This document shows positions 1-16,714 of a DNA stretch of 30,755 nt, piece after piece (within the stretch, counting starts at the first letter, position 1; each line of letters starts with the position of its first letter). The notes beneath the pieces were generated by a model that worked only from the letters and a program-made list of their open reading frames with translations, made no database searches and was not told where the DNA came from. The DNA lies in the IMG/VR virus record IMGVR_UViG_3300010401_000069, positions 1-30,755 of that record. The stretch is one strand, 5' to 3'. The position numbers were made by a program, and so were the translations under genes. This DNA is from a virus.

Positions 1-247
1 CCTCCCGCCTCTCGCGGGCACGGCCGTGGATCAGGTAGTGTATCGAGGTGTGGTCGCGGTCCCCGAGGAAGTGCCCGATCTGGGACAGGCTCATGTGCTT
101 CTCGTGCCTCAGGAAGCGCGCCACGGCCTTCCTGGCTGGGATCACCCTCTGGCAGCGGCTGGGCCCGCGCACCGCCTCCATCGGCAGCCCGTGCCTCTCG
201 CAGATTTCATTGACCCGCCGCCTGGTCTCCGCACCCGGCGTTTCCAT
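1..247 (-). CDS. Orphan DnaA domain IV-like DNA-binding protein (3' end outside window)
   Basis: The ATG at 247 follows a very strong Shine-Dalgarno (GAGGAGGT, 5 nt spacing). The frame is open for 82 codons to the window edge, so the C-terminus is missing. The protein matches the C-terminal DNA-binding domain of the replication initiator DnaA: residues 29-31 (PSR) begin the basic-loop region, residues 53-62 (SLSQIGHFLG) form the helix-turn-helix entry, and residues 63-68 (DRDHTS) correspond to the DnaA signature GGRDHTT that reads DnaA boxes. Only about 28 residues precede the domain, so there is no AAA+ ATPase; it cannot act as an ordinary initiator. It lies 14 nt after the last virion gene and would be made late. 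Inference: it binds DnaA boxes, competing with or recruiting host DnaA, or acts as a regulator. Family assignment is strong; function is open. Confidence 0.85.
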   Translation of the reverse strand, partial: METPGAETRRRVNEICERHGLPMEAVRGPSRCQRVIPARKAVARFLRHEKHMSLSQIGHFLGDRDHTSIHYLIHGRARERRE

Positions 248-261
248 CCGCACCTCCTCTG

Positions 262-1320
262 TTAGCGGTTGCCTCCCCTGTCCCCTTCCAGCCGGTCTGG
301 CGGCGCGATCATCGCGCTCATTCCGGTAGGAGGAGGCTGCCCGGCCAGGAAGAACCTCCTCAGGAAGTCCGGGCCCTGGACATGCGCGATGGGCCCCGTC
401 GGTGCCTGCGCCCCGAGGCCGGGGGGCCTCGACGGCGGTATGGGCGCCACCCCGAACCCTGCCGGCCGCGATGGCGGCATGGGTGCCTGCACCGTCGGAT
501 AGGGCGTGAAGCGGGGGTCTTGCTGCCCGCCTGCCAGAACCCTCTCGCCTGACGCCGGCGCCGCCGGCGCCACGGCTCCCGGTCCCGGAGGCGCCGTGGG
601 GTCCATGGGCGGCTGCGGCCGCTGCGGGGGTGTTCCGGGGGCCACGTAGGGCGCACCGGAGGTCAGCATGGGCGTGGACGGCGAGGGGTTGCCGAGCAGG
701 GGGTTGCCGAGTGGCTGCGCGCCCAGCCTGGGGTCGCCGGCCGGCGGGAGCTGTCCTCCCGCGCCTTGCGTGAATTCAGGGATGCTGTTCGGGTTGAGGC
801 GCGGCGCGGGCGGCGTGGCCGCCGCGACCGCCTGGGGCGCCAGCGCCGGCGTCGGGGTCGGGCCTACCGGCGTCGCCGCGGAGAATGACGGGCTCAGGGA
901 CAAGATGCTGGGCGCGCCCGCGCCAGGCACCGGGGAGTAGACGTCGCGGCTGAGCGCCTGGGTCACGTTGCCAGGCGCCGCCGGCGTCGGGGCCGGGGGA
1001 GGCACCTGAGGCACCTGCTGCGGCATGACTTGCGGTGCCTGCTGCGGCATGACCTGCGGAGCGCCAGGCCCCGACCTGCGGATCGGGGAGGTGAAGGCGC
1101 CCGCCGCCGGGCCGGCGCGCCAGGGCTCGTCGGCGCGGTTGGCCGCTCCGACGGAAGGGACCAGCGGTGCCTGCGGTGGCTGCGGTGGCTGCGGCGGCGG
1201 GGCCGGGCCCATGCCCAGAGCCCTGCGCACATAATCCCGAGGGATGGGCTGGTCCGGGGCGAGCCCCAGCTTCTGGCGCCAGCCCTGCTGCGACGACGCG
1301 ACGTAGCGGTCATCAACCAT
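262..1320 (-). CDS. Pro/Ala/Gln-rich putative virion protein
   Basis: This is a 352-residue protein with a clear GGAGG five bases before its ATG. The first 35 residues look folded (VDDRYVASSQQGWRQKLG). Most of the rest is Pro, Ala, Gln and Gly, including tandem APQVMPQQ-type units near residues 90-105 and repeated PPSRP motifs near the C-terminus. The composition suggests an intrinsically disordered protein. It is the last of three consecutive Pro-rich products after the ejection-protein genes and overlaps the preceding gene by 8 nt. Inference: a minor virion or ejection-associated component. No recognisable catalytic motif is visible and I cannot assign a function. Confidence 0.75.
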   Translation of the reverse strand: MVDDRYVASSQQGWRQKLGLAPDQPIPRDYVRRALGMGPAPPPQPPQPPQAPLVPSVGAANRADEPWRAGPAAGAFTSPIRRSGPGAPQVMPQQAPQVMPQQVPQVPPPAPTPAAPGNVTQALSRDVYSPVPGAGAPSILSLSPSFSAATPVGPTPTPALAPQAVAAATPPAPRLNPNSIPEFTQGAGGQLPPAGDPRLGAQPLGNPLLGNPSPSTPMLTSGAPYVAPGTPPQRPQPPMDPTAPPGPGAVAPAAPASGERVLAGGQQDPRFTPYPTVQAPMPPSRPAGFGVAPIPPSRPPGLGAQAPTGPIAHVQGPDFLRRFFLAGQPPPTGMSAMIAPPDRLEGDRGGNR

Positions 1321-1708
1321 TCCATCCTCCGTAAAGCTGGTTCATGGCGCCGACCGGGAAGGTCGTGCCGCCGTCGCTGCCCGCCAAATAATCCGGGTTC
1401 AGCTGGTAAGAGTTCGTGTGCGTGTCCCAGTGGTAGCCGGGCGGCGTGGGAACACCTGCCCAGCTGTTGTAGACCGCGCCATGCCCATCGGCGGGCGGGA
1501 TGTAGGTCGGGATCGTCGGGACCGGGGGCGGTGGCGGCGAGGGCGTCCCGTCGGAGGCGGGCGGTGCCTGCGGCGCCGGCGGCGAGACCGGCGTCGGCGG
1601 CGACATGCTCACGCCGGGCGGCATCTGCACCCAGGACGGCCACGTCCTCCCTGGCTGCGTGACTTGCGAGAGGTCGCTCGCGATGGCGCTGTCGCCTCGA
1701 TCACCCAT
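1313..1708 (-). CDS. Pro-rich hypothetical protein, 131 aa
   Basis: The ATG at 1708 has GGGGAG about 8 nt upstream and lies 3 nt after the stop of the preceding gene; the end overlaps the next gene by 8 nt. Residues 36-70 are strongly Pro-rich (PPTPVSPPAPQAPP and similar). The C-terminal third is aromatic and Gly-rich (GYHWDTHTNSYQLNP), resembling short surface-exposed structural segments more than an enzyme. No family is recognised. Its context within the virion block suggests a small structural or ejection-associated protein. Confidence 0.7.
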   Translation of the reverse strand: MGDRGDSAIASDLSQVTQPGRTWPSWVQMPPGVSMSPPTPVSPPAPQAPPASDGTPSPPPPPVPTIPTYIPPADGHGAVYNSWAGVPTPPGYHWDTHTNSYQLNPDYLAGSDGGTTFPVGAMNQLYGGWNG

Positions 1709-1711
1709 CGG

Positions 1712-2164
1712 TTATCTCCCCAGGAGCCCGGTCATCCCCGGGATGAAGGAAAGCGGGACGTGCGGCGGTGTGCTCCCCAGCGGGAACCCCCTGGGAAGCG
1801 GCAGCATGGGGGTTCCGTTGGGCATGAGCTGCGGCTGCTGAGACCTGGCGTCCGGGTAGGGCGGACGCACCCCCGGGTGAGGCACCGGTGGCGGCTGCAC
1901 CATCATCTGCGGGTTGTTCGCCGAGAACTGTGGCCTCTGGGACATCCCCGGCTTGGGGGGCCTGGGCTGCTTCATCGGTGCCTGCTTCGGAGGCGCCACG
2001 GCGGCCGCTACCTGCGCCGAGGTCATGCCTGGGGAGTGCTTGGCGCCCGAGCCTGGAGACCCCTGTTTCCCCGAGGAGGTCAGGGTCATGGTCTTGCCGC
2101 CCGGCGTCGGGGTCTGCGTGCCGAGCATCGACGAGAAGTCGTTGGTGATGCCGAGATTGGGCAT
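1712..2164 (-). CDS. Pro/Gln-rich hypothetical protein, 150 aa
   Basis: The start codon overlaps the stop of the virion lysin gene as TAATG, so it is probably translated by re-initiation. The protein is rich in Pro, Gln, Met and Ser with a basic stretch near residues 57-72 (PPKQAPMKQPRPPKPG). It has no obvious membrane segment or catalytic motif. It shares the Pro-rich bias of the next two genes, although no clear homology between them is visible. I infer a disordered virion-associated protein; the function is unknown. Confidence 0.7.
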   Translation of the reverse strand: MPNLGITNDFSSMLGTQTPTPGGKTMTLTSSGKQGSPGSGAKHSPGMTSAQVAAAVAPPKQAPMKQPRPPKPGMSQRPQFSANNPQMMVQPPPVPHPGVRPPYPDARSQQPQLMPNGTPMLPLPRGFPLGSTPPHVPLSFIPGMTGLLGR

Positions 2165-3606
2165 TAGGCGAGCCTCGGTCGCTTCATGGTGGTGGGCACG
2201 GGCTGCGCAGCACGCGGGTCGAGGTAGTTGAAGTCCGCGCTGGTGCCGATGGCGCCGAGCAGCTGCGTCATCCCTGGAGCACCAGCCGTGATGCTGTCGG
2301 GGGTGATACCGCCGATCACGGCGTCGCCTATCGGCTGCGATGCCAGCTGCCCGAGCTGCGCCCCGAGCCCCGGGTGCCCTTGTTGATACTCAAGAGGCAG
2401 CGCGTTGGGTGCCTGGCTCGGCGCCGGCATGGGCAGGGTGACGGGGTGCGCGTCCTGCGAGGTGTCGGTGACGACGCTTGAGCTGCTGCCGCCTCCTCCG
2501 AAGGACGACGCCAGCGAGGCACCCAGGTTCGCCCAGGGCGAGGGCTGCGCCGCGACCACGGTGGGCGTGCCGGAGGGCGTGGCGGCTGGTGCGGCAGCTG
2601 CGACTGCGGTGGAAGAGGTCGTGCCTCCGGCGCCCGATGCCGTGCCTGCGCTCTTGCCCTCGATGGCCGCCTGGATCATGACCGGCGAGTAGGCTTTGCC
2701 GGCCTCGCCCTGCTCCTGGACCACGAGGGCGCGCATGAACCTCGCTGCGCTCGCCGGGTCGTTGAAGTTGATGTTCTGGTCCGGGCGAAGGCCGGCGAGC
2801 TGGGCGACGTGCCTGGCGGCGCCCCAGTTTCCTCCCGTCCAGCCGCCATCGGCCGCGATGATGTCGTTCGGGGTCAGGCGGCCCGCATCGTATTTCTTCT
2901 TGAGGAGCGCATAGCCTGCGGCCCAGCCGGCTTCCGGCGAGGCGAACTTGATCTGCGGCGTGCCTTGGTCGGTGTTCACCGAGGGCCCGAGGACGCCGGC
3001 ATAGGTTCGCTCGGCGCCGGGGAAATACTTGATGTTCAGCGGGTTGTTGTTGCGCATCCCCGCCGGGGCGTTGGCCGGCATGACGAAGGCTGGTTGCTGC
3101 TGCTGCTGCTGCTGCGCGGCCATCATCTGCTGGGCCGGCTGCTGCACCTGGGCGTAAGCGTTCCAGACGTTTTGGGGGTTCCCGGTGGCGCGTGCCTGCG
3201 TCAGGCTCGCCAGGAGCTGGGGCGTTGTCTCCAGGGGTTGAGGAGTAAGTTGGAAGTGGTTGAACTCGGACGGGTGCTGGTAGCCGTAGGGGTTGTAGAG
3301 CCCGTGCGAGGTGGCGATGTCATACCATTGCTTGGCGGTCGGAGACCCCGCCGCGCCGATGCCGGTGACGTCGCCCGCTCCCCCGTAGAGATGCGAGGAC
3401 TTCCCCGAGACGTCATAGGCCGAGGGGTGATCGCTTTCGCGCCGCACGCCGCTGAGAAGCCTCACTGGAATTCCCTGGGCGATGGCGTCGCGCATGGCCC
3501 CGGCGAGCCGGCTCGCCATCGCCGGGTGCATCTCGGAGACGTCGTAGGGCCGCCCCGGATGCTGGCTCAGGGACGAGAGATATGCCCGGTCTTCGGCGTC
3601 GGTCAC
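2164..3606 (-). CDS. Virion-associated lysin: M15-type peptidase plus RNNNP-type domain
   Basis: The GTG start overlaps the previous stop as GTGA. The N-terminal domain (about residues 15-120) has the peptidase M15/VanY signature: SSHLYGGAGDV gives zinc ligands His72 and Asp79, and EFNHF gives catalytic Glu114 and third ligand His117. This family cleaves D-Ala-containing or L-Ala-D-Glu peptide cross-links of peptidoglycan. A short polyQ linker (about 165-171) leads to a second domain (about 183-315) beginning GMRNNNPLNIKYF, resembling the RNNNPGNI motif of phage structural lysozyme or transglycosylase-type proteins. The C-terminal 160 residues are Ala/Ser/Pro-rich. It lies among ejection proteins, distant from the lysis genes, so it is probably packaged and opens the wall during entry. 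The M15 assignment is good; activity of the second domain is inferred. Confidence 0.82.
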   Translation of the reverse strand: MTDAEDRAYLSSLSQHPGRPYDVSEMHPAMASRLAGAMRDAIAQGIPVRLLSGVRRESDHPSAYDVSGKSSHLYGGAGDVTGIGAAGSPTAKQWYDIATSHGLYNPYGYQHPSEFNHFQLTPQPLETTPQLLASLTQARATGNPQNVWNAYAQVQQPAQQMMAAQQQQQQQPAFVMPANAPAGMRNNNPLNIKYFPGAERTYAGVLGPSVNTDQGTPQIKFASPEAGWAAGYALLKKKYDAGRLTPNDIIAADGGWTGGNWGAARHVAQLAGLRPDQNINFNDPASAARFMRALVVQEQGEAGKAYSPVMIQAAIEGKSAGTASGAGGTTSSTAVAAAAPAATPSGTPTVVAAQPSPWANLGASLASSFGGGGSSSSVVTDTSQDAHPVTLPMPAPSQAPNALPLEYQQGHPGLGAQLGQLASQPIGDAVIGGITPDSITAGAPGMTQLLGAIGTSADFNYLDPRAAQPVPTTMKRPRLA

Positions 3607-6206
3607 GGAGGCGGCCTCGTGCCTCTGCGCGTCATGGGCACGTCCACGATGAAGGGCGTGCGATCAGGCCGGGGCGCCCCCGGCGGGAAGCGGTAGTTCT
3701 TCTCGGCCTGCTCGTTGGCGATGATGGCGGCGGTCGGAACGCGCCCCATGAGCGCATCCCAGTAGCCGGGCGGCATTCCGGCTATGGCCCGCTTCATCTC
3801 CGGGCTTGTGACTTTGCCCGCGAAGCCTCTGATGGCCCCTGCCGATGTGAGGGCTCCCCATTTCTCGCCCAGTGCCTGCTTGGACATGTCGGCGAACCCC
3901 CTGAGCATGGAGCCGATGCCGATCCTGTGGACCAGGCCGCTCCTGGCAGGAGGGGTATCGAAGTGCTCGCCGAGCCTGCCGGCGGTCTCCAGCCGATCAA
4001 GGGGCCACATGGAGCCGGGTGCCTGCGGGGCCACCCCTCCGAAGAGCTGGTCCTTCATCCCCGGCGACCAGTAGTTCAAGTCCTTGGAAAGGTCTTCCGG
4101 CCTGAAGCCGCCGCCGGCAGTCTTGGACTGCCCCAGCGATGCCGCCACATGCGCACCGATGGCCCCCCGAAGATTGCCGAGCCCGGCCTGTGTCAGGGCG
4201 TTGGCAAAGGGCTCGTAGCCGCTGGGGCTATTGCGGTTGCTGTAGACGGCGGCGTCTGCGGCATCCCCTTCCTTGGGTCGGGTGCCCCATTGCGGTTGTC
4301 CTCTTTCGTAGTGGGTGGGCGCGCCGCCTATTCCGTAGAGCATGTCGAGGACGCGCTGCTGCGTCTTGTAGTTCGAGCGGGCGGCGTCGAACTGGTCGGC
4401 GAGCGGCTGGCCGCCTTTCTGACGCGCCAGCTCCCGGATGGCGTCCAGCGTCCCGCTCTTCACGACGCTGAGGTTCTCCTTGCCGGCGGTCAAAGCGTCC
4501 GGGCCCATCTGGGCCGTGGTGCTTGAGAGGAACCTCTTCAGGAGCCCCAGAGGCACGGTCAACGCCGGCGGCCCGACGAAAGTGCGCGGGTCTTGCCCCA
4601 TGAAGACGGCTGGTCTTTGGTTTGGTCTGAAGTTCGAGCCGAAGGGCGTCGCGCTTTCGATGTTGGACTGCACAGTGCTTGCGAGCGCACGCTCCTGGGG
4701 CTGCGGCAGCTGGTTGCCGGCCATCACTTCTGCGGCGCCCCGAAGGATCGGGGTGACGTTCGTCTCGGTGTCGAGCGGAACCCGCCCGTAGAACCGATCA
4801 TAGGGCTCGCTCTGCATGCTCTTGATGACAGGCACGGCGGCGCGCGCGGCCGTGATCGCGAGGTCGCCGACGCTCTCCTTGGTCCCCACCGTGGGCAACG
4901 GCCCCCTGCCTCTCATCAGATCGTTGACGCTGGCGTCGCGCGCTTCCTGAGTGGCTGCGAAATGGCGGTCGACGTCACGCTGAAGAGGGCGCCCCACCCC
5001 CGTTTGCGAGCGCAGCCAGTTGATGATCGACTGCCATTCCGGGTTCACCATCGCGCGCGTGCTGGCGAGGTTGGGGAGGTTGGCTATCTCCCTTTCCTGG
5101 CGCGTGGCGCCCCATGGAACGCCCATGAGGCCCGGAGCCGGAGCCCCCGGCATTCCTCCCTTCTCGCGCGCATACTTGTCCTTGGCCAGCTCTGCGCCGG
5201 CATCGAAGAGCCCACGGCTTTCCGGGGTGCGCATGTCCGCTGCCGTCGCCCGAACGATCTTCGTCTTGGCCGCGCCGGGCGCGCTGGAGCCGGCGGCGCC
5301 GCCGGCCAGAGACCCGGCCTCGCGCCAGCGTTCGCCCAGGGTGGCGGCGGCGATGTCGCCGCCGGCGTGACTGCCGAGCACGCCGGTGATCGCGGCGACC
5401 GGCTTGCCGGCAAGAGCAGCCTCGGCGATCTCGCGCAGCATGCCTGCGTCCTGGGGAAGCTCCGGCGCGCTGATGCTCTTCCTGAGCTCCTGCCCAGGCA
5501 CGGGGATGTCGCCGGCTGTTCCGCTCTCGGGGCTGATGCCGTGCTTGGCGGCGTTGTAGCCGTGCGCGGCGAGATCGACGGCGGCCAGCTGCGGAGCCGC
5601 GACATATGGCGCCACGCGAAGCCCGGTCTCGCCGATGTCCTGCATGGAGATGTCCGTGCCGGGGACTTTGACCTTGTTGAACTCGCCGGTGCGTCGTTCG
5701 AGCCAGTCAACCACCGGGTTGAAATCGGCCTTGGCGGCCAGGCGCCCGAAAGCGCCCTTCTCGTAGTGCATGGTGGGGCTGTAGACATAGCCCGGCGTCT
5801 CGTAGGGGGTGCCCTGCTTCTGTGCCTGCTCGCTGTAGGTCGCGTGCAGGAGGTTCTCGATGCCTTGGCGGTGCTTCTCTGCCTCTTCGAGGCTCATCTG
5901 CTTGTTCGGGTAGTTGAAGAAGTGCCCGTTGCTGAGCGACATCCTCGACCAGCCGCCATCGGCCGAGAAATCCTCGGGCCTATACCGACCGGGATCGTCC
6001 GGAAGGAGCTTTTTGCCATCTCCACTGAGCGTGAAATCATGCGGCAGCAGAGGGTCTGGCGGGGGAGGCTGCGACCCTGCTTGCGGCGGCGTCTGCCAGA
6101 TGCCCGTTGGCGCATGACCCTGTGGTGACGCCCCCCAGACGCCACTCGTCGGCGGTGGCGCTTGCGGTGGCGGCGCTCCCCAGACGCTCGGCGTGTCTTC
6201 GGCCAT
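3603..6206 (-). CDS. Large internal virion (ejection) protein, 867 aa
   Basis: AGAGGT sits 6 nt before the ATG. The N-terminus carries three imperfect Trp-containing units (SVWGAPPP, GVWGASPQG, GIWQTPPQ) in a Pro-rich segment. The remainder mixes Ala/Gly-rich amphipathic stretches (about residues 190-300) with globular segments. No catalytic motif stands out. Size, position next to the virion lysin and after the gp14-like gene, and composition match the large ejection proteins of podoviruses that form the channel across the envelope. That role is inferred from synteny; I see no sequence signature that proves it. Confidence 0.8.
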   Translation of the reverse strand: MAEDTPSVWGAPPPQAPPPTSGVWGASPQGHAPTGIWQTPPQAGSQPPPPDPLLPHDFTLSGDGKKLLPDDPGRYRPEDFSADGGWSRMSLSNGHFFNYPNKQMSLEEAEKHRQGIENLLHATYSEQAQKQGTPYETPGYVYSPTMHYEKGAFGRLAAKADFNPVVDWLERRTGEFNKVKVPGTDISMQDIGETGLRVAPYVAAPQLAAVDLAAHGYNAAKHGISPESGTAGDIPVPGQELRKSISAPELPQDAGMLREIAEAALAGKPVAAITGVLGSHAGGDIAAATLGERWREAGSLAGGAAGSSAPGAAKTKIVRATAADMRTPESRGLFDAGAELAKDKYAREKGGMPGAPAPGLMGVPWGATRQEREIANLPNLASTRAMVNPEWQSIINWLRSQTGVGRPLQRDVDRHFAATQEARDASVNDLMRGRGPLPTVGTKESVGDLAITAARAAVPVIKSMQSEPYDRFYGRVPLDTETNVTPILRGAAEVMAGNQLPQPQERALASTVQSNIESATPFGSNFRPNQRPAVFMGQDPRTFVGPPALTVPLGLLKRFLSSTTAQMGPDALTAGKENLSVVKSGTLDAIRELARQKGGQPLADQFDAARSNYKTQQRVLDMLYGIGGAPTHYERGQPQWGTRPKEGDAADAAVYSNRNSPSGYEPFANALTQAGLGNLRGAIGAHVAASLGQSKTAGGGFRPEDLSKDLNYWSPGMKDQLFGGVAPQAPGSMWPLDRLETAGRLGEHFDTPPARSGLVHRIGIGSMLRGFADMSKQALGEKWGALTSAGAIRGFAGKVTSPEMKRAIAGMPPGYWDALMGRVPTAAIIANEQAEKNYRFPPGAPRPDRTPFIVDVPMTRRGTRPPP

Positions 6207-6216
6207 GTCTTACCTC

Positions 6217-7983
6217 TTAGCTACCTGGTGTAGCCGGGGCGGGGACGTAGATGGGTTGGCCGCCAGGTCCGCCTGGCACCAGTATCCAGGAAGGCTTTGA
6301 AGCTGGTGCCTGCGGTGCCTGAGCCGGTGCCTGAGCTGGCTCCGAGATCGCCGGCGAAGTTGCCGGCGGCGGTGGGGCGATGGCTCCTGGGGCGGGGGCT
6401 GGAGCTGCTGCTGGAGCTGGGGCTGGAACCGCACCGGGTGGCCCTGACGGCGAGACCTTGGGCGCGATGATCGTGCCGATGCCGCCAAGCTCTCCCTGCT
6501 TCTTGGCGACATCCTCCTTGATGGTCTGCCAGCGGCCATGCTCGCGGGTGTCGAACTCCTCGGGCCTGAGGATGTCGTTGGGCCCGTAGCGCCCAAGCAC
6601 GCGGGCGGCCTCCTGGGCGCTCTCCATGGCGCGCTTGGCGTAGACCTGCTGCCGCGCGAGGTTGTTCAGAAGCACCGCTGCGGGCTGGTCGGCGTCGCCG
6701 GTGATCGCGGCGAAGGGCTTGATCTCGGGGCCGGCGAACCTGGCATTGGCCTCTTTAACGAGTTCCGGCAGCTCGGCCTGGAGCAGGTGGTTCAGGGCGT
6801 CGCGCGCCATGGCGTCGTTTGTGACGTAGATTTTGTGCTCCGAAAGCAGCCGGTTGGCGAGGTTGACCGCCTGATCGGGAGCCGTCTTGCTCAGGTTCCG
6901 ATACTGGGCGAGCAGAATGGCCTGGGACACCCGGTCGTCGAGCTGCGCCATGGGCTTCTCGGCGTCGGCGTATCTGGCGAAGCGTGCCTGCTCCTGCTCG
7001 TCGCGCTTTCCGCGCGCCGCTGCATCGGTTGGGCTTTCGGTGATCCTGGTGCCGACGCCCGGGGTGTAGCTGGTTTCCGGGATGGGCTGCGCGTAGGTGC
7101 CTGGCAGCGGCGAGGCACGGGTGACGCTCCAGCCGCCTCCCGGAGTGGGCGTGGCGCCTGGCGGCATCGCCGGCGCCCCTGCCTGCGGCTGTGCCAGAAC
7201 TCCCGTATTGGGGTCGGGCGCGGTCGGCGCCCTGGGAAGAAGGCTGGGGTCGATGATCTTGCCCTCTTGGGGTTTTCCCAAGGTCTCGCCGCGTGCCTTG
7301 GCCAGGGCCTCGGCCTCGCTCATCCCCAGATCGCGATTGTCGATGTATTGGCGCGTCGCCGGGCCGGCATCCACCACACCCTTGGGAGGCGGCTCGCTGT
7401 GCGTCATATACCACTTGTCGAGGTTGGCCTTTCTCCCGGCCGGGGAGGGGTCGTCCACATACTGGTAGCGGCCCCGCTGCTCCTCGCCCGCCTTGAGCTT
7501 TCCGCCTTCCTGTGCCTGCGACTTCTGGCCCTCCTGCGCCGCGATCAAATCGGCTTGTGCCTTGGCCGATACGGGCCCGACGGCCGGCGGATAAGGCTTG
7601 TCCCAGGGGACACCTGCCTGGGCCAGACGCGCAGCGTTGCGCTGCCAGGCATCCGGCGTGTCGCGGTCGTCCCATTTCTCCGGGGTGAGCTTGATGGCGA
7701 GCTTCAGCGCGTCCTCTGCCGAACCACCATGGAGGAGGTGGTTGGCGATGATCGAGACCTTGTTGGGGTCGTTGTCCACCAGCCTGCCGAAAGAGGCGGT
7801 GGCGGCCTGCACCGCCGCCATCTGCCTGCGCTTCTCCTCGACCTGGAGCTGCTCCAGGAACATGCGCTGCTGGAGCAGGTAAGCCTCCGCTCTAGTCTTA
7901 GGACTAAAGTTGTTGGCGAGCTGCGACGCGAGGCTGCTCAGCGCCTCCGACATCGAGTTGTCCTGCATCCTCAGAACGGGCAT
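6217..7983 (-). CDS. Internal virion (ejection) protein, 588 aa
   Basis: The ATG at 7983 lies 2 nt after the preceding stop, with only a weak ribosome binding site, suggesting coupling. Residues 10-60 form a charged helical segment (NNFSPKTRAEAYLLQQRM, LEQLQVEEKRRQ) likely to be a coiled coil. The middle is helical and charged. Residues 505-575 are Pro/Ala/Gln-rich (PAPAPAAAPAPAPG and similar), a feature shared with the late structural genes that follow. By order (gp14-like gene before, large ejection protein and lysin after) it probably belongs to the internal-core or ejection set. No enzyme motif is visible. Confidence 0.78.
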   Translation of the reverse strand: MPVLRMQDNSMSEALSSLASQLANNFSPKTRAEAYLLQQRMFLEQLQVEEKRRQMAAVQAATASFGRLVDNDPNKVSIIANHLLHGGSAEDALKLAIKLTPEKWDDRDTPDAWQRNAARLAQAGVPWDKPYPPAVGPVSAKAQADLIAAQEGQKSQAQEGGKLKAGEEQRGRYQYVDDPSPAGRKANLDKWYMTHSEPPPKGVVDAGPATRQYIDNRDLGMSEAEALAKARGETLGKPQEGKIIDPSLLPRAPTAPDPNTGVLAQPQAGAPAMPPGATPTPGGGWSVTRASPLPGTYAQPIPETSYTPGVGTRITESPTDAAARGKRDEQEQARFARYADAEKPMAQLDDRVSQAILLAQYRNLSKTAPDQAVNLANRLLSEHKIYVTNDAMARDALNHLLQAELPELVKEANARFAGPEIKPFAAITGDADQPAAVLLNNLARQQVYAKRAMESAQEAARVLGRYGPNDILRPEEFDTREHGRWQTIKEDVAKKQGELGGIGTIIAPKVSPSGPPGAVPAPAPAAAPAPAPGAIAPPPPATSPAISEPAQAPAQAPQAPASKPSWILVPGGPGGQPIYVPAPATPGS

Positions 7984-7987
7984 GTCA

Positions 7988-8680
7988 TCACCACTGCGCT
8001 TTCGAGATGCCGCTGCCGATCAGAGAGCCCGCGAGACCGCCCAGCGTCTTGGATATGTCGGCGAAGCTCTGCGTGCCTGGGCCGATGGTGAAGTGCTCCG
8101 GCTCCACCTGCTGTTCGGTTCTGTAAGTCTGAAGATCGGCGTTGCGGATGTTGCCTTCGAGATTGATCTGGTTGCCCCCTTGGGCGAAGCGGATCGGTAT
8201 CTCGGTGCCGGCGCCGTAGGTGGACCCTCCGAAGGAGTTCGCGGTCGCCAGGGCCGCGATGCGCTGGCGTGCCTGCGAGCTGGCGGCGCTCACCTGCTTG
8301 GCGAGATCGCTCCCGGAGATCGAGGTCGGGTCGCTGCTCTGGCCCGAGAGCGCCACCGACGCCGTGACGTTCGGGTCGTGGGTCTGGGGGCCCGGCGCGA
8401 GATAGAGGTTGTTCAGCCGCTGCTGCTCGGTCTGCTGCACCTGGTTATAGGCGGCTGGGGACACCTTCTGGAGGGTGTCCTGGCGGGCGTTCTCGGCCAG
8501 CTGCCGGCGCTTGTTCTCCTCGGCAGTCTGCTCCTGGTGGATCTGGGTCTGGTAGGCGACCCATTGGGCGTTGGCGTTGTTCTGGGCGTCGATGACGGCC
8601 TGCTGGTCGCCGGCGGCCTTCATGCCCCCAGCGATGGCCAGCCCGCCCGAAATCAACCCGCCGACGAGGGGGTCGCACAT
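7988..8680 (-). CDS. T7 gp14-like internal virion protein B
   Basis: The ATG at 8680 overlaps the preceding stop as TAATG and has GGGAG 7 nt upstream. The N-terminus (MCDPLVGGLISGGLAIAGGM) is a short Gly-rich hydrophobic segment typical of gp14-like ejection proteins, followed by a long Gln/Ala/Glu-rich helical region (about residues 25-95) likely to be a coiled coil. The C-terminus is again Gly-rich and hydrophobic (TLGGLAGSLIGSGISKAQW). In T7-like phages such proteins leave the capsid and insert into the outer membrane. The assignment rests on the N-terminal pattern, length and neighbours. Confidence 0.72.
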   Translation of the reverse strand: MCDPLVGGLISGGLAIAGGMKAAGDQQAVIDAQNNANAQWVAYQTQIHQEQTAEENKRRQLAENARQDTLQKVSPAAYNQVQQTEQQRLNNLYLAPGPQTHDPNVTASVALSGQSSDPTSISGSDLAKQVSAASSQARQRIAALATANSFGGSTYGAGTEIPIRFAQGGNQINLEGNIRNADLQTYRTEQQVEPEHFTIGPGTQSFADISKTLGGLAGSLIGSGISKAQW

Positions 8681-9678
8681 TACACGGCTCCCGTGATGCC
8701 AGTGCCCTGGTCAGGGTTCTTGATGGGCGTCGTGGTCGTGTTGCCCTGCGCCATCGAGAAGTTGTAGGGGCTGGTCAAGGCACCGGCGAGGTTGGCGGTG
8801 CCGACGGCGATGGGCGCGAACATCGCCCCGGCCGGGTTCAGCAGCGGCGTGGTGAGCTGCGCGTTGGCGACCATGTTCTGCGCCGTGTTCGCGGCGGTGG
8901 TCGGGTCTTCGGTCGCGTAGAGCTGGTTGATGGCCTGCTGCTGGTAGTCCTGGATTTGCTTGCGAAGCCCCGCCGTCTGGGTGTCGGCCTGCGAGGCGAT
9001 CTGCGCCCGGTTCAGCTCGTCCTGCTTGGCCAGCTGGGCCACGCTGGTGTTGGCGGTCGAGGAGTTGAGCTGTCCTGCTCTCGCCAGATCGTAGCTGAGC
9101 TTGGAGCGCGCATCCGAATACTGCTGTGTTTCTTGCGGCAGGTAGTAATCGAGCGTGGCCTGCCGGAATTTGTCATACATGGTGTTTTCGAAGCCGCCGA
9201 CCATCTTGTCGGAGGTGCCGCCATACCAGATTTGACGCTGCGCCAGATCGTCCGGTGAGCCGGCGGATGTGACGAGGTTCCCGCTGCTGTCCCAGATGCC
9301 GTATTGCTGCGCCCCTCCGCTGGAGGGCAGGGAGCCCCAGGTGTAGCCGCCGGCCAGCGACGATCCGACGTCCACCCAGCTCTTGGTGGCGTCGTCCCAG
9401 GCTTGCGGAGAGCCTCCTCCCCAGTTGCCGTAGGTGCCTGTGGTCGACGAGGCACCGGCCGGGATCGCAGGCACCTTGCCGCTGGTGATCCCCGAGAGAT
9501 CAAGCATGGTGGCGTCGGAGGGATGCCCGCCAAAGATGTCGGTGATCTGGGAGAGCCCCTGCTCCAGGCGGGCCGAGCGTTCGATGTTCGCCTGCTTGGC
9601 TTCAGCCGCCTGCTGCATCTGCATCTGGACCATCTGGTCATTGGTCGAGACCGGTCCGGATTTGCCTTTGCCGCCCAT
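8680..9678 (-). CDS. Putative internal virion/structural protein, 332 aa
   Basis: The start overlaps the GNAT gene stop as TGATG, with AAGGA 7 nt upstream. The N-terminal 50 residues are helical and Gln/Met-rich (DQMVQMQMQQAAEAKQ). Residues 75-150 are Gly/Ser/Trp-rich (TYGNWGGGSPQAWDD). Residues 165-255 are helical and Gln-rich, likely coiled coil. No family is recognised with certainty. Its place between the acetyltransferase-like genes and the gp14-like gene indicates a virion or ejection component. Confidence 0.75.
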   Translation of the reverse strand: MGGKGKSGPVSTNDQMVQMQMQQAAEAKQANIERSARLEQGLSQITDIFGGHPSDATMLDLSGITSGKVPAIPAGASSTTGTYGNWGGGSPQAWDDATKSWVDVGSSLAGGYTWGSLPSSGGAQQYGIWDSSGNLVTSAGSPDDLAQRQIWYGGTSDKMVGGFENTMYDKFRQATLDYYLPQETQQYSDARSKLSYDLARAGQLNSSTANTSVAQLAKQDELNRAQIASQADTQTAGLRKQIQDYQQQAINQLYATEDPTTAANTAQNMVANAQLTTPLLNPAGAMFAPIAVGTANLAGALTSPYNFSMAQGNTTTTPIKNPDQGTGITGAV

Positions 9679-10169
9679 CAGAGTTTCCTTCGAAACATGA
9701 CGCCGAAGGGCATGAAGCCCGCTTTCGCGAACAGGTTGTGGAGGGTTCGCACCTCCTTCATTCCGGAGGCGACGGGGGCATGGAAGGCACCAGCTCCGGC
9801 TCGCTGTCCTTCCTGGACGGCAAGCACGACGAGCCCTCGCCCGATGGCGGAACGTCGGAAATCAGGGTGGACATAGAGTTCCAGAAGAACCTGACAGGGC
9901 TTCCTGGAGAAGGTTCGGTCGAACCAATACGAGACGAAGCCGACAATGCTTTCATCGACGATGGCGAGGATATGAGGACGTTCATCAGAGATGATGCCTC
10001 CAAAAACTGTGTTGGTGACGGCTTCCTCATCGAACTCCAGGTAGTCCTTGTAGACGGCCTCCTCGTAGAAGAGCTTGTAAAGCTCCATCAGCTCAGGAAG
10101 ATCATCCCCCGTTGCGAAGCGGAAGGTGACTTCTTCTTTCAGGTCTCGAAGGGTGATTGGCTTGTTCAT
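9678..10169 (-). CDS. GNAT-family N-acetyltransferase-like protein, 163 aa
   Basis: The frame is open further upstream, but the residues before MNKPITLRDLKEE are out-of-frame readings of the neighbouring gene, so I place the start at ATG 10169. No good Shine-Dalgarno is present and the gene overlaps its upstream neighbour by 68 nt, implying re-initiation. The GNAT pattern is clear: an N-terminal TFRFATGDDLPELMELYKLF element, a central beta strand LLELYVHPDFR, and the acetyl-CoA loop RRSAIGRGL (R/Q-x-x-G-x-G) leading into a helix, then the family's late LHNLFAKAGFMPFG segment. The substrate is unknown. A second GNAT-like gene lies directly upstream, so the two may form a packaged pair or modify virion or host proteins. 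Confidence 0.82.
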   Translation of the reverse strand: MNKPITLRDLKEEVTFRFATGDDLPELMELYKLFYEEAVYKDYLEFDEEAVTNTVFGGIISDERPHILAIVDESIVGFVSYWFDRTFSRKPCQVLLELYVHPDFRRSAIGRGLVVLAVQEGQRAGAGAFHAPVASGMKEVRTLHNLFAKAGFMPFGVMFRRKL

Positions 10170-10635
10170 CGGAGTGCCACGCAAAGAGAATGAAATCTTC
10201 GCGTCGGGCGCCGAATTCCGACAAGACGGCCTCGGGCTCTGCACCAAGGGCCATCAGCCACCGCTTGGTGTCGGAACGCTTGAACAGCGCCCGGCATTCT
10301 GCCCGGTGGAACCCGGCCCCGAGCAGCATCGGGACCATAGTGCGACGCACATGCTTTGTCATCCGCAGCACCGCCCGGGGCCAGCCGGGCGTGCCGAAGG
10401 CCCAGACACCTGCGCAGGTCGGGGTCATCGCATAGGCCCCCAGCGCCGCGACCGGGCCGTCGTCCCAGAACAACCACCCAGAGCTTTGGGCAGTGAGGCG
10501 GTAGATCACGTCGGCGAGCACAGGCACCGAGTAGCGGGAGCCATGCACGGCCTCCATCTCCTCCTGGTCCGCAGGTCTCAGGTTCTCCAGCACATGCACC
10601 AAGGGCGGCATGGTGACGCCGGTCACACGGATCAT
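10102..10635 (-). CDS. DUF2833/T7 gp13-like (GNAT-fold) internal virion protein A
   Basis: The ATG at 10635 overlaps the nozzle gene stop as ATGA. The sequence follows the phage gp13-like family: an N-terminal LENLRPADQEEMEAVHG segment, a central strand pair SGWLFWDDGPVAALGAYAM, a TPGWPRAVLRMTKHVRR segment where GNAT enzymes bind acetyl-CoA, and a late ECRALFKRSDTKRWLMALGA region. T7 gp13 is a minor internal virion protein required for maturation. The canonical R-x-x-G-x-G loop is not conserved, so catalytic activity is doubtful. The C-terminal 22 residues (after FAWHSDE) are encoded in the overlap with the next GNAT gene and look low-complexity. Confidence 0.72.
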   Translation of the reverse strand: MIRVTGVTMPPLVHVLENLRPADQEEMEAVHGSRYSVPVLADVIYRLTAQSSGWLFWDDGPVAALGAYAMTPTCAGVWAFGTPGWPRAVLRMTKHVRRTMVPMLLGAGFHRAECRALFKRSDTKRWLMALGAEPEAVLSEFGARREDFILFAWHSDEQANHPSRPERRSHLPLRNGG

Positions 10636-12158
10636 GAGCTGTCGCTCGCCGCGTAGTGGACGACCATCTTGCTGAGAGTGGCGGGGCCCGGCGCCTGGTG
10701 CGTCGCCTTGATCTGGAGATGCGTGCCTCGGCCGCTGATCGGGATGCGGCCGCCCATCGGCGTGGGGCCTTCCATCGTGCAGATTTGATCGAAAGGAGGA
10801 CTGTCCTGCGCAGGATCAAAGCTCATCTGGATGTTCCAGGGGGAGCCGGCCTGCGCCCGGCAGACGGCATCGAAGCCCTGATAGAACTTGAAGGCCGTCG
10901 GCTTCTCGAAGCTCAGCCCCGGCGTCAGCACCTGGACCGGGCAGCTGTCATAGACGAGCGCGCCATAGCCGCCGAAGCGCCAGATGTTGCTGGAGGTGTC
11001 GGCCAGGTAGATGTAGGGGTCCGCAAACGCCATCCCATTTTTCGCGATGTTGAAGCCGGGGAGGTAGGTGCTCCAGGCCGCGATATTGGGCGAGGCGAAG
11101 TTCGAGAGCACGAAAATGGTGTCATAGCAGGCGATCCACATGCGGCCTGTCCTGGGGGACAAGACCGCCTGCGTGCCTCCCATGTCGTTGGCCGCGCCGC
11201 TCCAGCCGCGCGTCGCGATCAGGTTCTGGATAATTTCGTCGATGGGCGAGCCCACGTCGGCGACGGCGGCCGTGGTGGTCAGGTCGCGTGCCCGCAGAGA
11301 CCTGATGCCGTGGCTTCCCAGGAAATACACGTCGTTCGCCACATACTGGCGCACGCTGGCCCTGGCCAAGGTGCCTGCGTCCCGCAGCGTCTGATAATAC
11401 TGGTTCAGCGCAGGATTGGGGTCCAGGAACCAGAGCTGCGCGCCCAGCGACGAGAACAGCGCCATCTTGTCGTAGTAGACTTCCAGCGCGATCATGTTCT
11501 CGCTGTCGCTGTCGGTGGCGCCCAGCGAGATGAAGCCCGAGCCGTTGTGGTCGACCGTGCCGTCGGTGCCGGGTGGCGGATCGACCCATTTGGTCGGGTC
11601 GCCCAGCGCCGAAAAGAACAGGTAACGGCCGTTTAACCCATAGACTTTCTCTTTGTAAGTGCGCACGGAATATGCACGTCCATCGGCCTCAGGCACGTAA
11701 ATGCCGTCATAGTAAGAATAGACGCCCGTGGCGCCGCCGGCAGTTCCCAGGAACGATATGAAGAGCTTGCCGTTGTAGATGTCCCAATCGGTCATCTCGG
11801 CGAGGGTCACTCCCGAGGGGGCCGTGTGCGTGATGCGCCCGTATTCCTGGCCCGTGCCTCCGGCACCGGGCGGGACCAGGCCGGAACCTCCCTGGTTGTA
11901 GACGAGGACCGGGTAATTGTTGATCGCCGCCAGCCCGCAGAAGCCCGTGGGGGAGATGGCCCATTTCTGCTCGAAGCGCGAGCGTTTCTCGATCTCGCCG
12001 CCTTGCGTGATATGGCAGTTCTGGAGGGTGCGCAGCGTGCCTGCCGGCGCGGTCAGGACATCCTTGCGGGTGTCGAGGCCGTTCATGAACGAGGCTATCT
12101 CGTAGTAGAGGATGTTGCCGCCGCCCCCTTGAGAAGCGGTCTTGATGCCCTTCGCCAT
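10632..12158 (-). CDS. Tail nozzle / packaged-DNA stabilisation protein (gp10/gp12-like)
   Basis: The 508-residue protein begins 6 nt after the adaptor stop. The segment MNGLDTRKDVLTAPAGTLRTLQNCHITQGGEIEKR (about residues 28-62) is characteristic of a conserved podovirus tail/stabilisation protein. The remainder is beta-rich with repeated blades such as YNGKLFISFLG, GLNGRYLFFSALGDP, TGRMWIACYDTIFVLS and DPYIYLADTSSNIWRFGG, consistent with a beta-propeller like P22 gp10 or T7 gp12. It would form the distal tail tube that plugs the packaged genome. Length is close to P22 gp10 (about 470 residues). The order adaptor then nozzle supports the call. Confidence 0.78.
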   Translation of the reverse strand: MAKGIKTASQGGGGNILYYEIASFMNGLDTRKDVLTAPAGTLRTLQNCHITQGGEIEKRSRFEQKWAISPTGFCGLAAINNYPVLVYNQGGSGLVPPGAGGTGQEYGRITHTAPSGVTLAEMTDWDIYNGKLFISFLGTAGGATGVYSYYDGIYVPEADGRAYSVRTYKEKVYGLNGRYLFFSALGDPTKWVDPPPGTDGTVDHNGSGFISLGATDSDSENMIALEVYYDKMALFSSLGAQLWFLDPNPALNQYYQTLRDAGTLARASVRQYVANDVYFLGSHGIRSLRARDLTTTAAVADVGSPIDEIIQNLIATRGWSGAANDMGGTQAVLSPRTGRMWIACYDTIFVLSNFASPNIAAWSTYLPGFNIAKNGMAFADPYIYLADTSSNIWRFGGYGALVYDSCPVQVLTPGLSFEKPTAFKFYQGFDAVCRAQAGSPWNIQMSFDPAQDSPPFDQICTMEGPTPMGGRIPISGRGTHLQIKATHQAPGPATLSKMVVHYAASDSS

Positions 12159-12164
12159 CGCTGC

Positions 12165-12929
12165 TTACGAGGTCGCCGGGATGTAGTCGATATAGGGGGT
12201 CGGCATCCCCGAGCCCGCGACCGGCCCCATATGGCCGCCGTCACGGCTGAGAGACCTCATGGGCCTCTGCTGGGCGCCGAGGCGCGCCACCAGCATCCGC
12301 CGGTAGGAGTTGGCCTTCTGGAGCTTCATCGCGGCGCCTTCGCTCTTCTGCACCGAGAGGATTTCGGCGGCCGCCATCAGTACGATCAGGGTGGCGTCGA
12401 TCACGCAGGTGTCGGTGTCCACCGCCAGCGGCATGAGCGGTGCCTGGCCCTCGCAGCGCACCGAGCCCACCGTGCCGTTCGGCATCGGCCATATCTCGAA
12501 CTGCGACGCGACGGTCAGAGTGGGCGTGGCGCCCGGCGTGTAGACGGGCGCGTTACGCCATTTCTGGGGCGGCCAGCCCTTGTTGTTCTCGCCGCCATAG
12601 GTGGCGTAGGTAGCCGGCGAAATCCCGTAGGCGAGAGGCACCCAGTCGGTGCCTGACGGGCCCCAGATGCGGGTGATGCTGTCGAAGGGAAGCTCGGGCG
12701 GGTAGGGGTAAAGTCGCTGGCCGTTCACCATCGCGATGTCGCTGTAGAGCGTCAGATGCGGCCAGACGACCAAATCCCACTGCTCCCGCTGCACGCGGGC
12801 CAATTGGTAGTTGTAGAACGGGGTCGATGACGTGGTTTGTGCCGGCGTCATCGACTGGAAGGTCTCGGCCATCAGCTCGCTGCGCAGCTGGCTCAGAGGA
12901 ACCCCCACTCGCATCGAGCGCGGTGTCAT
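12165..12929 (-). CDS. Putative head-tail adaptor/neck protein
   Basis: The ATG at 12929 has GAAGGG 6 nt upstream. The protein (254 aa) contains many aromatic and polar residues near its N-terminus (STPFYNYQLARVQREQWDLVVWPHLTLYSD), typical of phage adaptor proteins that bind beneath the portal, a beta-rich middle with QFEIWPMPNG, and a helical C-terminal region (VIDATLIVLMAAAEILSVQK, KLQKANSYRRMLVARLGAQ). This layout resembles neck proteins encoded just before nozzle proteins. No precise family can be named from sequence alone. Confidence 0.65.
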   Translation of the reverse strand: MTPRSMRVGVPLSQLRSELMAETFQSMTPAQTTSSTPFYNYQLARVQREQWDLVVWPHLTLYSDIAMVNGQRLYPYPPELPFDSITRIWGPSGTDWVPLAYGISPATYATYGGENNKGWPPQKWRNAPVYTPGATPTLTVASQFEIWPMPNGTVGSVRCEGQAPLMPLAVDTDTCVIDATLIVLMAAAEILSVQKSEGAAMKLQKANSYRRMLVARLGAQQRPMRSLSRDGGHMGPVAGSGMPTPYIDYIPATS

Positions 12930-12939
12930 GGCTTGCCCT

Positions 12940-13377
12940 TCAGATCGCGGTGTCTACCGCGCCCGCATTGCCCGCATCTTCTCGCGGCGGCTTATGGATT
13001 TGGACCGGCGTGGGCCTGTCGTTCGGGGGCTTGCGCTTCGCCTTCGTGGGATCGACCGGCCAGCCAGGCACGAACCACTCCATGCTGAAGGTCTTGCCGG
13101 CGTAGACGGCCTCCACCGGGTCGCGCCCATACTTCAGGACCAGGCGCTCTTTCTCGCGGGGAGCTGTGTCGCGGGGCACGAGCGCCACGGGACGGATGTC
13201 GAATACGGCTTCTTCCCCGTGGACTTCCTGTAGCACCCTGATCTCGGTCCAGGGCACCGGGTCGTGGATGTCCCGATGCACGACCTGGAGCTTCTCTCCG
13301 GCGATGTCGATGGCGCAGGCACAGACGTGCTGCTTCATGTAGCCTTCGTCGTCTCGGTCGCGGCTGCTGCTGCTCAT
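12940..13377 (-). CDS. Hypothetical virion-region protein, 145 aa
   Basis: I use ATG 13377, not the upstream in-frame alternative at 13401, because AGGAG lies 7 nt before it. The N-terminus is Ser/Arg/Asp-rich, then a beta-rich domain follows (KQHVCACAIDIAGEKLQVVHRDIHDPVPWTEI), ending in a basic Pro-rich tail (TKAKRKPPNDRPTPVQIHKPP). CACAID includes two Cys close together but no clear zinc-binding set. It sits between capsid and neck genes, suggesting a head-completion or accessory capsid role, but no family is recognised. Confidence 0.7.
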   Translation of the reverse strand: MSSSSRDRDDEGYMKQHVCACAIDIAGEKLQVVHRDIHDPVPWTEIRVLQEVHGEEAVFDIRPVALVPRDTAPREKERLVLKYGRDPVEAVYAGKTFSMEWFVPGWPVDPTKAKRKPPNDRPTPVQIHKPPREDAGNAGAVDTAI

Positions 13378-13405
13378 GCAAGTTCTCCTGTTCAGAGGCA
13401 CTGAC

Positions 13406-13431
13406 CCCGGCGGTCTTCCGGGACCGCCGGG
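13406..13431. terminator. GC-rich intergenic hairpin, 10-bp stem
   Basis: CCCGGCGGTC is followed by a 6-nt loop and its exact reverse complement. It lies in the 110-nt gap between the 155-aa and 145-aa genes, just upstream of the latter's ribosome binding site. No T-tract follows on either strand, so it is more likely an mRNA-processing or stability structure than a complete intrinsic terminator. Confidence 0.5.
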
Positions 13432-13487
13432 AGCCAGGCACTACGCGGGAGAGGTAGCACAGGGGAATGACCCGCGTGGTGTTACGA

Positions 13488-13955
13488 TCAGCCTCTGGAC
13501 TTGCTGGTGTCGGGGTGATCCGGGTCCACCGGATGGTAATCGGGGTCGAAGGGGTTATTCTCGGCGACGCGCCTCTCGGCCTCCGAGCGTTGCGCCTTGC
13601 CGGCATCCGCGAGGCGGTTGGCCTCAGCCTGCGTCTGCTCGAACTCCTCCTCGTTCACCGGCTGCCCGGCGACGTAGTTGCGGCTCCCCGGAGGCGGGAT
13701 TTTCGAGCGTTCCATATCCTGGATTTTGGCGACCTCCTCGGCCGTCTCGGCGTGCCTCGCGGGCCCGACGGGCTCGCCGGCCGGGGTCTTGGGCTCCACC
13801 GGGAGCGTCGGTGAACGCACCACGGATTTTTCGGCGCGCTCGCTCTCGTACTCGGTGCCTTCGTGATGCACCTCCCCGGACGCCGACGACTTCTTGCTGC
13901 TGCTGCCGGAGGAAGCATGATGCGTGTCGGAAGCGTGTCCTTTATCCTTTGCCAT
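13488..13955 (-). CDS. Hydrophilic hypothetical protein downstream of capsid, 155 aa
   Basis: GGGAG lies 7 nt before the ATG. The N-terminal 45 residues are rich in Ser, His, Lys and Glu (GHASDTHHASSGSSSKKSSASG). The rest is charged and probably helical (AETAEEVAKIQDMERSK, EEEFEQTQAEANRLADAGKAQRSEAERR), ending NPFDPDYHPVDPDHPD. It has no hydrophobic core typical of an enzyme. Immediately downstream of the major capsid gene and its hairpin, it could be a head accessory, internal head or decoration-related protein; this is positional inference. Confidence 0.72.
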   Translation of the reverse strand: MAKDKGHASDTHHASSGSSSKKSSASGEVHHEGTEYESERAEKSVVRSPTLPVEPKTPAGEPVGPARHAETAEEVAKIQDMERSKIPPPGSRNYVAGQPVNEEEFEQTQAEANRLADAGKAQRSEAERRVAENNPFDPDYHPVDPDHPDTSKSRG

Positions 13956-13987
13956 GACGGCTCTCCCACTGGGGGGTCAAAGAGAGT

Positions 13988-14012
13988 GGCGCGGCGCTTC
14001 TGGCGCCGCGCC
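13988..14012 (-). terminator. Hairpin after the capsid gene, probable (attenuating) terminator
   Basis: GGCGCGGCGC, a 5-nt loop and the exact complement form a 10-bp all-GC stem starting about 10 nt after the capsid stop on the minus strand. The sequence after the stem (ACTCTCTTTG) is only moderately T-rich. This is the usual place for a partial terminator that keeps capsid mRNA above downstream levels; strength is not known. Confidence 0.55.
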
Positions 14013-14021
14013 TTCACTCAA

Positions 14022-15137
14022 TCACGCAATGTCAATGACCAGCGAAGAGTTCAGCTGCGAGGCGACCATCTGCCCCGTCGAGGTGATCGACTTGTAGAGC
14101 ACGAACACGTTGTAGGGGCGCGCCGGGGTATGGTCGTTGCGCCACTCGTCCTCCATGGCCATCAGGAAGACGTTCTTGGGGTCGATCCAATACATCCTCT
14201 TCTTGAAGCCGAGATCGTCCAAGGTCGGGTCGTAATAGACCTTGGTGCCTCCATCGAGAACGGTGTCGCCGACCGACACATCTTGCGTGTTGGCGAAGCC
14301 GGTCTGCGAGTAGTTGCCGTTGGCGCGTCTCTCGACCATCAGCGCATCGAGGAAGTCCGAGCCGCAGAAGGCAATCGACGGCTTGCCGCCGTAGCGGATC
14401 AGCTGGATGTATTCCTTCTGAAGCGCCTGAAGCAGCGCCCCGCCGTTGGTCGGGCTGGAGGTGACAGGGCCACCTCCAGAAATGGCGTCCCCAGGCACCG
14501 TTCCGATCTGGGTGGCCATGGCCGCCGTGCGCGCACGATTACGCCACCAGGTGAAGCCCGTCGCCGCCGTCTGGTCGATGCCGCCGACGGTGCCCACGCA
14601 TGGGTTTGCCTTGATCATCGAAGCGATGCCGGCGAGGGCCTTGGCGTCTGAGGTGCCGTCGGTCCAGAGCAGGGTGTTCATGCTGCGCGCATATTGCTCG
14701 CCCAGCGAGAACAGCTTCTGCTCCAGCAGGTTCACAAGCACCGTCATCTCACGCTTCGAGTGCTCGGTGGTCTTCTCGCCGTTGGTGTCGACGACGGAGA
14801 TGCCGTCGATCTTCAGCTCGGTATGCGTGAGCGTCAGGCCGATGTGGTGCTCGCGCCAGGGGTAGTTCGCCCGCTTGATGTTCGCCGGCGTGAAGAAGCT
14901 CACCGTGTCGTTGTGGGTGTAGCCCTTGACGACATCGTTCCCGGAGCCGTCGCCATAGGCGCCGACGACTGCGAGCGAGATGTTCCCTTTCCCGCCTGGG
15001 AAAGTCTTCTTGCGGTCTTCCAGGAGCTTCAGAAGTGGGCGCTCCTGGATGGTCTGGTCGAAGACGCCCCCCTTCTTGAAGTAGTAGTCCAAAGACGCAT
15101 TCGCGATTGATGCGATTTCACCGGCTGTAAAAGCCAC
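14022..15137 (-). CDS. Major capsid protein (probable HK97 fold)
   Basis: The protein has 371 residues and starts at GTG 15137 with GGAG 7 nt upstream. It directly follows a scaffold-like gene and precedes a strong hairpin. The N-terminal arm is helical (AGEIASIANASLDYYFKKGG), followed by a beta-rich region with an extended-loop candidate (about residues 50-105, including FTPANIKRANYPWREHHIGLTLTHTELKIDG). Then comes a long spine-helix candidate (TTEHSKREMTVLVNLLEQKLFSLGEQYARSMNTLLW). An axial-type domain with PSIAFCGSDFLDALMVERR and RMYWIDPKNVFLMAMEDEWRN follows. Size, order and secondary-structure pattern fit an HK97-like major capsid protein; no pro-head protease gene is seen nearby. Confidence 0.85.
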   Translation of the reverse strand: MAFTAGEIASIANASLDYYFKKGGVFDQTIQERPLLKLLEDRKKTFPGGKGNISLAVVGAYGDGSGNDVVKGYTHNDTVSFFTPANIKRANYPWREHHIGLTLTHTELKIDGISVVDTNGEKTTEHSKREMTVLVNLLEQKLFSLGEQYARSMNTLLWTDGTSDAKALAGIASMIKANPCVGTVGGIDQTAATGFTWWRNRARTAAMATQIGTVPGDAISGGGPVTSSPTNGGALLQALQKEYIQLIRYGGKPSIAFCGSDFLDALMVERRANGNYSQTGFANTQDVSVGDTVLDGGTKVYYDPTLDDLGFKKRMYWIDPKNVFLMAMEDEWRNDHTPARPYNVFVLYKSITSTGQMVASQLNSSLVIDIA

Positions 15138-15155
15138 GAGCTTGCTCCGTCAGGG

Positions 15156-16226: not shown

Positions 16227-16293
16227 TTAACGTCCGCACCTTCAGGCCATGGCCTTGGCCTGTTGTCTTTGTGTAGCATCAGATTTCAGGCAC

Positions 16294-16308
16294 GCGCAAA
16301 TTTTGCGC
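16294..16308. promoter_or_regulatory. Perfect 7-bp inverted repeat upstream of scaffold gene
   Basis: GCGCAAA, one central base, TTTGCGC. It lies in the 113-nt gap between the 20-codon reading frame and the scaffold gene. It could be an operator or a small RNA hairpin. A weak promoter-like pair on the minus strand (TTGCGC and, 18 nt later, TACACA) overlaps its right arm, but similarity to consensus is low. Confidence 0.35.
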
Positions 16309-16339
16309 ACATCTCCGCGTTTGCCTGGCCATAGTATGT

Positions 16340-16402
16340 TTAGCAGCGGCCCCCGCCGCCGCGCTTGATCTTGCCCCCGCCTTGTCCCTTTTTCGTCGAC
16401 AT
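16340..16402 (-). CDS. Possible 20-aa basic Gly-rich peptide
   Basis: A 20-codon frame (MSTKKGQGGGKIKRGGGGRC) starts with ATG overlapping the stop of the 55-aa gene as TGATG, the same coupling used by many neighbours. It is highly basic and Gly-rich and ends in Arg-Cys. It is too short to judge by composition; the coupling and placement are the only evidence. It could equally be untranslated. Confidence 0.3.
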   Translation of the reverse strand: MSTKKGQGGGKIKRGGGGRC

Positions 16403-16569: not shown

Positions 16570-16597
16570 CGGTGCCTCCTACTTCTTCATGGGCAAG

Positions 16598-16626
16598 CCC
16601 GGCGCGCCTCGCGAGAGCGCGCCGGG
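16598..16626. terminator. Strong GC hairpin between membrane-protein and 55-aa genes
   Basis: CCCGGCGCGC, a 9-nt loop that is itself partly palindromic (CTCGCGAG), and the exact complement. There is no T-tract on either side, so factor-independent termination is uncertain. It begins 29 nt upstream of the start codon of the 55-aa gene. Confidence 0.5.
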
Positions 16627-16652
16627 AGCAACCAGAGGGAGCCGGGATCAGA

Positions 16653-16674: not shown

Positions 16675-16714
16675 GCTCGTCGGGTCGCCACCCTTCAAGC
16701 AGCTATGCAATCTC

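Follow-up and report, generated by a model that had tools for sequence, protein, structure and literature searches.

What would a phage do with the DNA-binding domain of the initiator DnaA when the AAA+ ATPase that normally goes with it is missing? This question is raised by a short gene at the left edge of a contig from a soil phage, whose kin are phages and a prophage of Rhizobiales. The window that we analysed is the whole 30,755-base IMG/VR record, so its edge is also the contig edge. Read on the minus strand, the gene starts at an ATG (245-247) and leaves the contig after 82 codons, at base 2, with the C-terminal end of the protein lying past the left contig edge. In DnaA, the AAA+ domain lies ahead of domain IV; since the unseen part of the gene is the C-terminal side, its leftward extension cannot rebuild the normal DnaA architecture. 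On the N-terminal side of domain IV we found no AAA+ ATPase, and just 14 nt separate the start codon from the stop of the previous gene, which bears out the original prediction that there is no room for this domain. The very strong ribosome binding site that had been pointed out is also there: AGAGGAGGT, with an AGGAGG core, lies in the 14 nt that follow gene 262-1320. GC at the three codon positions of the frame (0.65/0.49/0.92) follows the same coding pattern as in the neighbouring genes. Close relatives of the reading frame were found neither in IMG/VR nor in GTDB genomes, and a search of IMG/VR with two neighbouring late genes found none for these either, which left no way to follow the gene beyond the end of the contig. 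The original prediction had further placed it at the end of a late operon. It is indeed the last visible gene, it shares strand and operon with the virion genes, and its visible neighbours are virion genes, but the contig stops inside it, so that an operon end at this place is no more than possible.

Table 1. Coordinates of the features discussed in the text.
Feature	Coordinates	Strand	Basis or remark
Predicted orphan DnaA domain IV protein, at least 82 aa	2..247	minus	Pfam, TIGR00362, PHROG, AlphaFold2, Foldseek
Predicted helix-turn-helix with DnaA-type recognition segment LSQIGHFLGDRDHTSIHYLIH, residues 54-74	26..88	minus	Predicted helices and alignment
Basic loop GPSRCQRVIPARK, residues 28-40	128..166	minus	Alignment
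Shine-Dalgarno GAGGAGGT	252..259	minus	Direct reading of the sequence; about 4-5 nt before the ATG
Proline-rich late gene, C-terminal GMSAMI motif	262..1320	minus	Directly upstream of the DnaA-C gene in transcription
Late (virion) gene block	262..27380	minus	Profile matches; synteny with Mae-Yong1326-1 and the G047 prophage
Leader between the CobT-like gene and the late block, GC 0.72	27565..28990		1.4 kb
Perfect DnaA box TTATCCACA	27819..27827	minus	447 nt upstream of the tail-fibre gene start

Using profile searches, we found that the frame matches DnaA domain IV, as had been claimed. Pfam PF08299 (Bac_DnaA_C) scores 39.6 bits against a curated cut-off of 31.5 (E = 5e-10), and the match covers residues 13-71 counted from the ATG at 247 (15-73 from a GTG at 253) and profile positions 6-64 of 69. 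No helix-turn-helix family other than Bac_DnaA_C was listed in the Pfam search of this frame, which leaves the assignment without a competitor of that kind. TIGR00362, the model of the full DnaA initiator, reaches 32.5 bits against an equivalog cut-off of 343.9, with the domain IV part alone matched, and all full-DnaA models match over domain IV only, far below their cut-offs. The sole PHROG match, to PHROG 27829 ('DnaA-like replication initiation protein'), is weak (E = 4e-4, 59 of 72 positions). A provisional form of the PROSITE signature PS01008 misses the window protein and matches E. coli DnaA.

Structure prediction, the check originally proposed against DnaA domain IV, points the same way. 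AlphaFold2, run on this one sequence, predicts five helices with a mean pLDDT of 84.4. A Foldseek search of the PDB ranks DnaA chains first (8btg, 3pvp, 2hcb, 1j1v, 3r8f and 1l8q); the best chain of every entry has a probability of 0.96-1.00, and most of them have TM-scores of about 0.67-0.74 and an rmsd of 1.5-2.1 Å. Their E-values are modest (0.28-1.4), perhaps not surprisingly for so short and helical a protein. The predicted helices of the helix-turn-helix span residues 54-61 and 66-74. When aligned to E. coli and Rhizobiales DnaA, the protein keeps D433/H434/T435 as D65/H66/T67, with S68 for T436, and in the basic loop R31 aligns with R399 and R39 with R407 (the E. coli numbering is our own count). 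With the contact roles of basic-loop and recognition-helix residues taken from the 1J1V complex, R399, R407, D433, H434 and T435 are box-contact residues of E. coli DnaA that the window protein keeps. The fold, the basic loop and the RDHT motif are thus common to the window protein and to DnaA domain IV as solved in 1J1V and 3PVP, whereas the window protein lacks the AAA+ domain and domains I-II and differs from E. coli DnaA by Q408->K, K415->R, P423->S and T436->S. Together, profiles and model confirm the gene as one predicted to encode a complete DnaA domain IV without an AAA+ domain.

Such stand-alone DnaA-C genes are already known in phages, prophages and bacteria, and the window protein joins them. 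The novelty that the original prediction saw in an orphan DnaA-C is overstated, because PHROG 27829 is already annotated and most of the sampled Rhizobiales carry a short DnaA-C besides dnaA. PHROG 27829 (72 aa, from phages) is domain IV alone and falls in the same length class as the window protein, although the match between them is weak and the function of this PHROG comes from annotation only. Stand-alone genes as in the window are annotated in Microcystis phage Mae-JY35 (161 aa), where RusA is encoded a few genes away, in Synechococcus phage Ssp-JY42 (138 aa) and in Pelagibacter phage HTVC204P (178 aa), where the gene shares an operon with a nuclease and an annealing protein and early and late genes converge; their proteins are longer (138-178 aa, with an N-terminal extension), are encoded at other locations and share 28-33% identity with the window protein. 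In Rhizobiales genomes, the window protein matches mostly short ORFs, several of which lie beside or near DUF1376 or HTH_36 genes of replication type or between a Mu transposase and DUF3164; many Rhizobiales prophages carry a DnaA-C gene of this kind, mostly next to replication genes. In most of the 61 Rhizobiales genomes sampled, dnaA is accompanied by another, short DnaA-C gene (130-280 aa). These chromosomal proteins resemble the window protein in being domain IV without AAA+, but they are on the host side, mostly carry RDRTT in the recognition segment in place of the window's RDHTS, and stand apart from it in a tree of DnaA-C domains. In the two neighbourhoods seen (L073 and L154), the short chromosomal gene adjoins a gene for a MucR-like regulator. 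Domain IV has also been reused outside DnaA in some subclass 2.1 TnpA-REP-type HuH proteins, which end in a Bac_DnaA_C tail whose target may have changed (PMC6006769); unlike the window protein, these tails are fused to a nuclease. One apparent orphan with three nearby boxes, in the fecal GenBank record 'Bacteriophage sp.' MT837670.1 (hit L070), was rejected: its dnaA is bacterial and full-length (about 437 aa), DnaA boxes lie close by and a dnaN-like gene follows, so that the entry is a bacterial origin region deposited under a phage name. In the open literature searched, we found no experimental paper on a stand-alone DnaA domain IV protein, and nothing direct on phage-encoded DnaA or domain IV proteins.

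The relative with the firmest support is a DnaA-C gene of 87-88 aa (ATG at 144438, to 144701) in a Rhizobiales prophage (UBKJ01000003, G047:C18). This prophage has virion proteins related to those of the window (identities of 58% for the major capsid protein, 59% for TerL and 49% for the portal), and its genes are ordered int-repressor-RuvC-DnaA-C-SNF2-RecB-SSB-dNMP kinase-DNA polymerase, followed by CobT/CobS and then the late block. In a tree of 84 domains, the window protein is sister to the prophage protein (support 100/86), and eight rows, mostly of phages and prophages, split from the host DnaA rows (support 96/82); the tree was built on 82 columns and the sister branch is very long, so it counts as moderate evidence. 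The full DnaA rows nearest by E-value (435-445 aa, from 0.9-Mb genomes) were considered as kin and rejected, because they fall elsewhere in the tree than the window. The prophage protein, which also matches PHROG 27829 (E = 4e-5), shares its size and a GPSR basic loop with the window protein, but it is encoded in an early replication cassette instead of the late block and its recognition helix has lost the DHT residues (RQVSS). No DnaA box was seen in this prophage.

We propose, at even chances, that the window protein is a stand-alone domain IV binder that acts on the phage's own DNA, in replication or in late-gene control. As a small helix-turn-helix protein it would bind double-stranded DNA in a DnaA-like manner, and without the ATPase it should be unable to open an origin. 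Judging from gene context, and weakly from the tree, it probably belongs to a phage and prophage DnaA-C lineage found mostly in replication and recombination cassettes, a setting that favours action on phage DNA over blocking of the host origin. On phage DNA it might label a control site or an origin that replication proteins of phage or host then use, or it might regulate the late transcript. Here the gene is read with the virion genes, and the single perfect box in the leader is the best candidate target. However, the sister protein has no DHT and its prophage no DnaA box, so the target of this lineage need not be a DnaA box. Two further findings count against the proposal: the window gene sits among late genes and outside a replication cassette, unlike most of its relatives, and the other orphan-bearing phages show no excess of DnaA boxes. 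Stand-alone DnaA domain IV proteins are widespread in alphaproteobacterial phages, prophages and chromosomes, and the window, with its kept contact residues and a candidate site in the same genome, could show whether they read the box, compete with the host or have changed target.

A protein of this architecture might instead be directed at the host. It would occupy boxes at the host oriC or at DnaA-regulated promoters in competition with host DnaA, and thereby stop host initiation or spare nucleotides for phage DNA. The missing AAA+ domain is what a dominant-negative form would be expected to show, and the box-contact residues are mostly kept. There is also a precedent: an E. coli prophage protein is reported to bind DnaA, and over-expression of its gene cluster to inhibit initiation (PMC4776307). 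This possible reading is simple, but it has no specific support beyond the domain architecture. The gene is read with the late genes, at a time when stopping host initiation has little use, its relatives lie in replication cassettes, and the sister protein has no DHT motif. We therefore regard an antagonist of host DnaA as rather unlikely and prefer action on the phage's own DNA.

For such action, the late block and its leader offer a candidate site. The block encodes a collagen-containing tail-fibre-like protein, lysozyme, TerL, portal, major capsid protein, an SU10-type adaptor, an acetyltransferase, internal and lytic proteins and several large late proteins. No convincing gene was seen in the 1.4-kb leader upstream of it (27565-28990), which carries the one perfect DnaA box of the window, against 0.01-0.04 expected from order-1 to order-3 Markov models for a box that was looked for after the fact. 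The sole sibling covering the site (L003) has the same box at 513, in a stretch that is nearly unchanged, while no perfect box was found in the leaders of nine or more other relatives, some of them partly covered and several without the DnaA-C gene. These observations are suggestive only, and we treat the box as a lead to the target of the window protein. Together with the late position of the gene, it makes late-gene control possible. In a specific form of such control, the protein would bind this single box and tune late transcription by feedback, which would accord with Caulobacter, where DnaA doubles as a transcription factor (Hottes et al. 2005, cited by PMC9437464). Against this stand a single site found after the fact, a box that could serve host DnaA instead, and the lack of any sigma-70-like promoter seen near it, and we consider feedback control distinctly unlikely. 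That the box reader in the late operon and the leader box form a protein-site pair, through which DnaA occupancy in the host would govern late expression or the change from replication to packaging, is a long shot.

The leader is GC-rich and repetitive, and its segment TGTGCGCCCCCGGGGGTG...AAATTCG resembles the leaders of four relatives (L053, L014, L018 and L019); this shared segment is possibly an origin, a promoter or a packaging site. Beyond the leader, the CobT-like gene (28991-30754) has a VWA domain and a long acidic EGEG repeat. It lies on the late-gene strand in the window and on the opposite strand in L053, L062 and the G047 prophage, which suggests an inversion or another arrangement.

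We also asked how the gene is distributed among the relatives of this phage. The major capsid protein is 60% identical to that of Microcystis phage Mae-Yong1326-1 and 44% identical to that of Rhizobium phage RHph_N65, and a terminase search of IMG/VR gave 47 related loci. No Bac_DnaA_C match was found in 46 related records, mostly fragments, two of which are about 48 kb. Other small genes sit between RuvC and SNF2 in two relatives that are near-complete, indicating that this slot is variable. A diverged DnaA-C ortholog in this slot, sought with a custom HMM and by eye, was rejected; the proteins there are other small ones. This sporadic presence and variable slot would suit a degenerate passenger of host origin, a fragment captured from dnaA or from a chromosomal orphan that does nothing for the phage, but the strong ribosome binding site, intact frame, coding GC pattern, conserved recognition residues and sister gene in a related prophage make a passenger very improbable.

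Two further features of the late block were seen. At the end of its visible part, the otherwise dissimilar genes 262-1320, 1712-2164 and 2164-3606 share a motif near the C-terminus, GM[TS]x[LM][LMI], in the variants PGMTGLLGR, GAPGMTQLLGA and TGMSAMI. The motif recurs in the corresponding genes of relatives and in others at that end (L061 7412-9915, L054 12556-15777, L059 250-1702 and L051 7742-8188), and is perhaps a shared peptide for anchoring or packaging. Inside the block, a GNAT acetyltransferase gene and an adjacent small gene lie at 9678-10247 and 10102-10635; an acetyltransferase is likewise encoded among the tail genes of HTVC204P and Mae-Yong1326-1.
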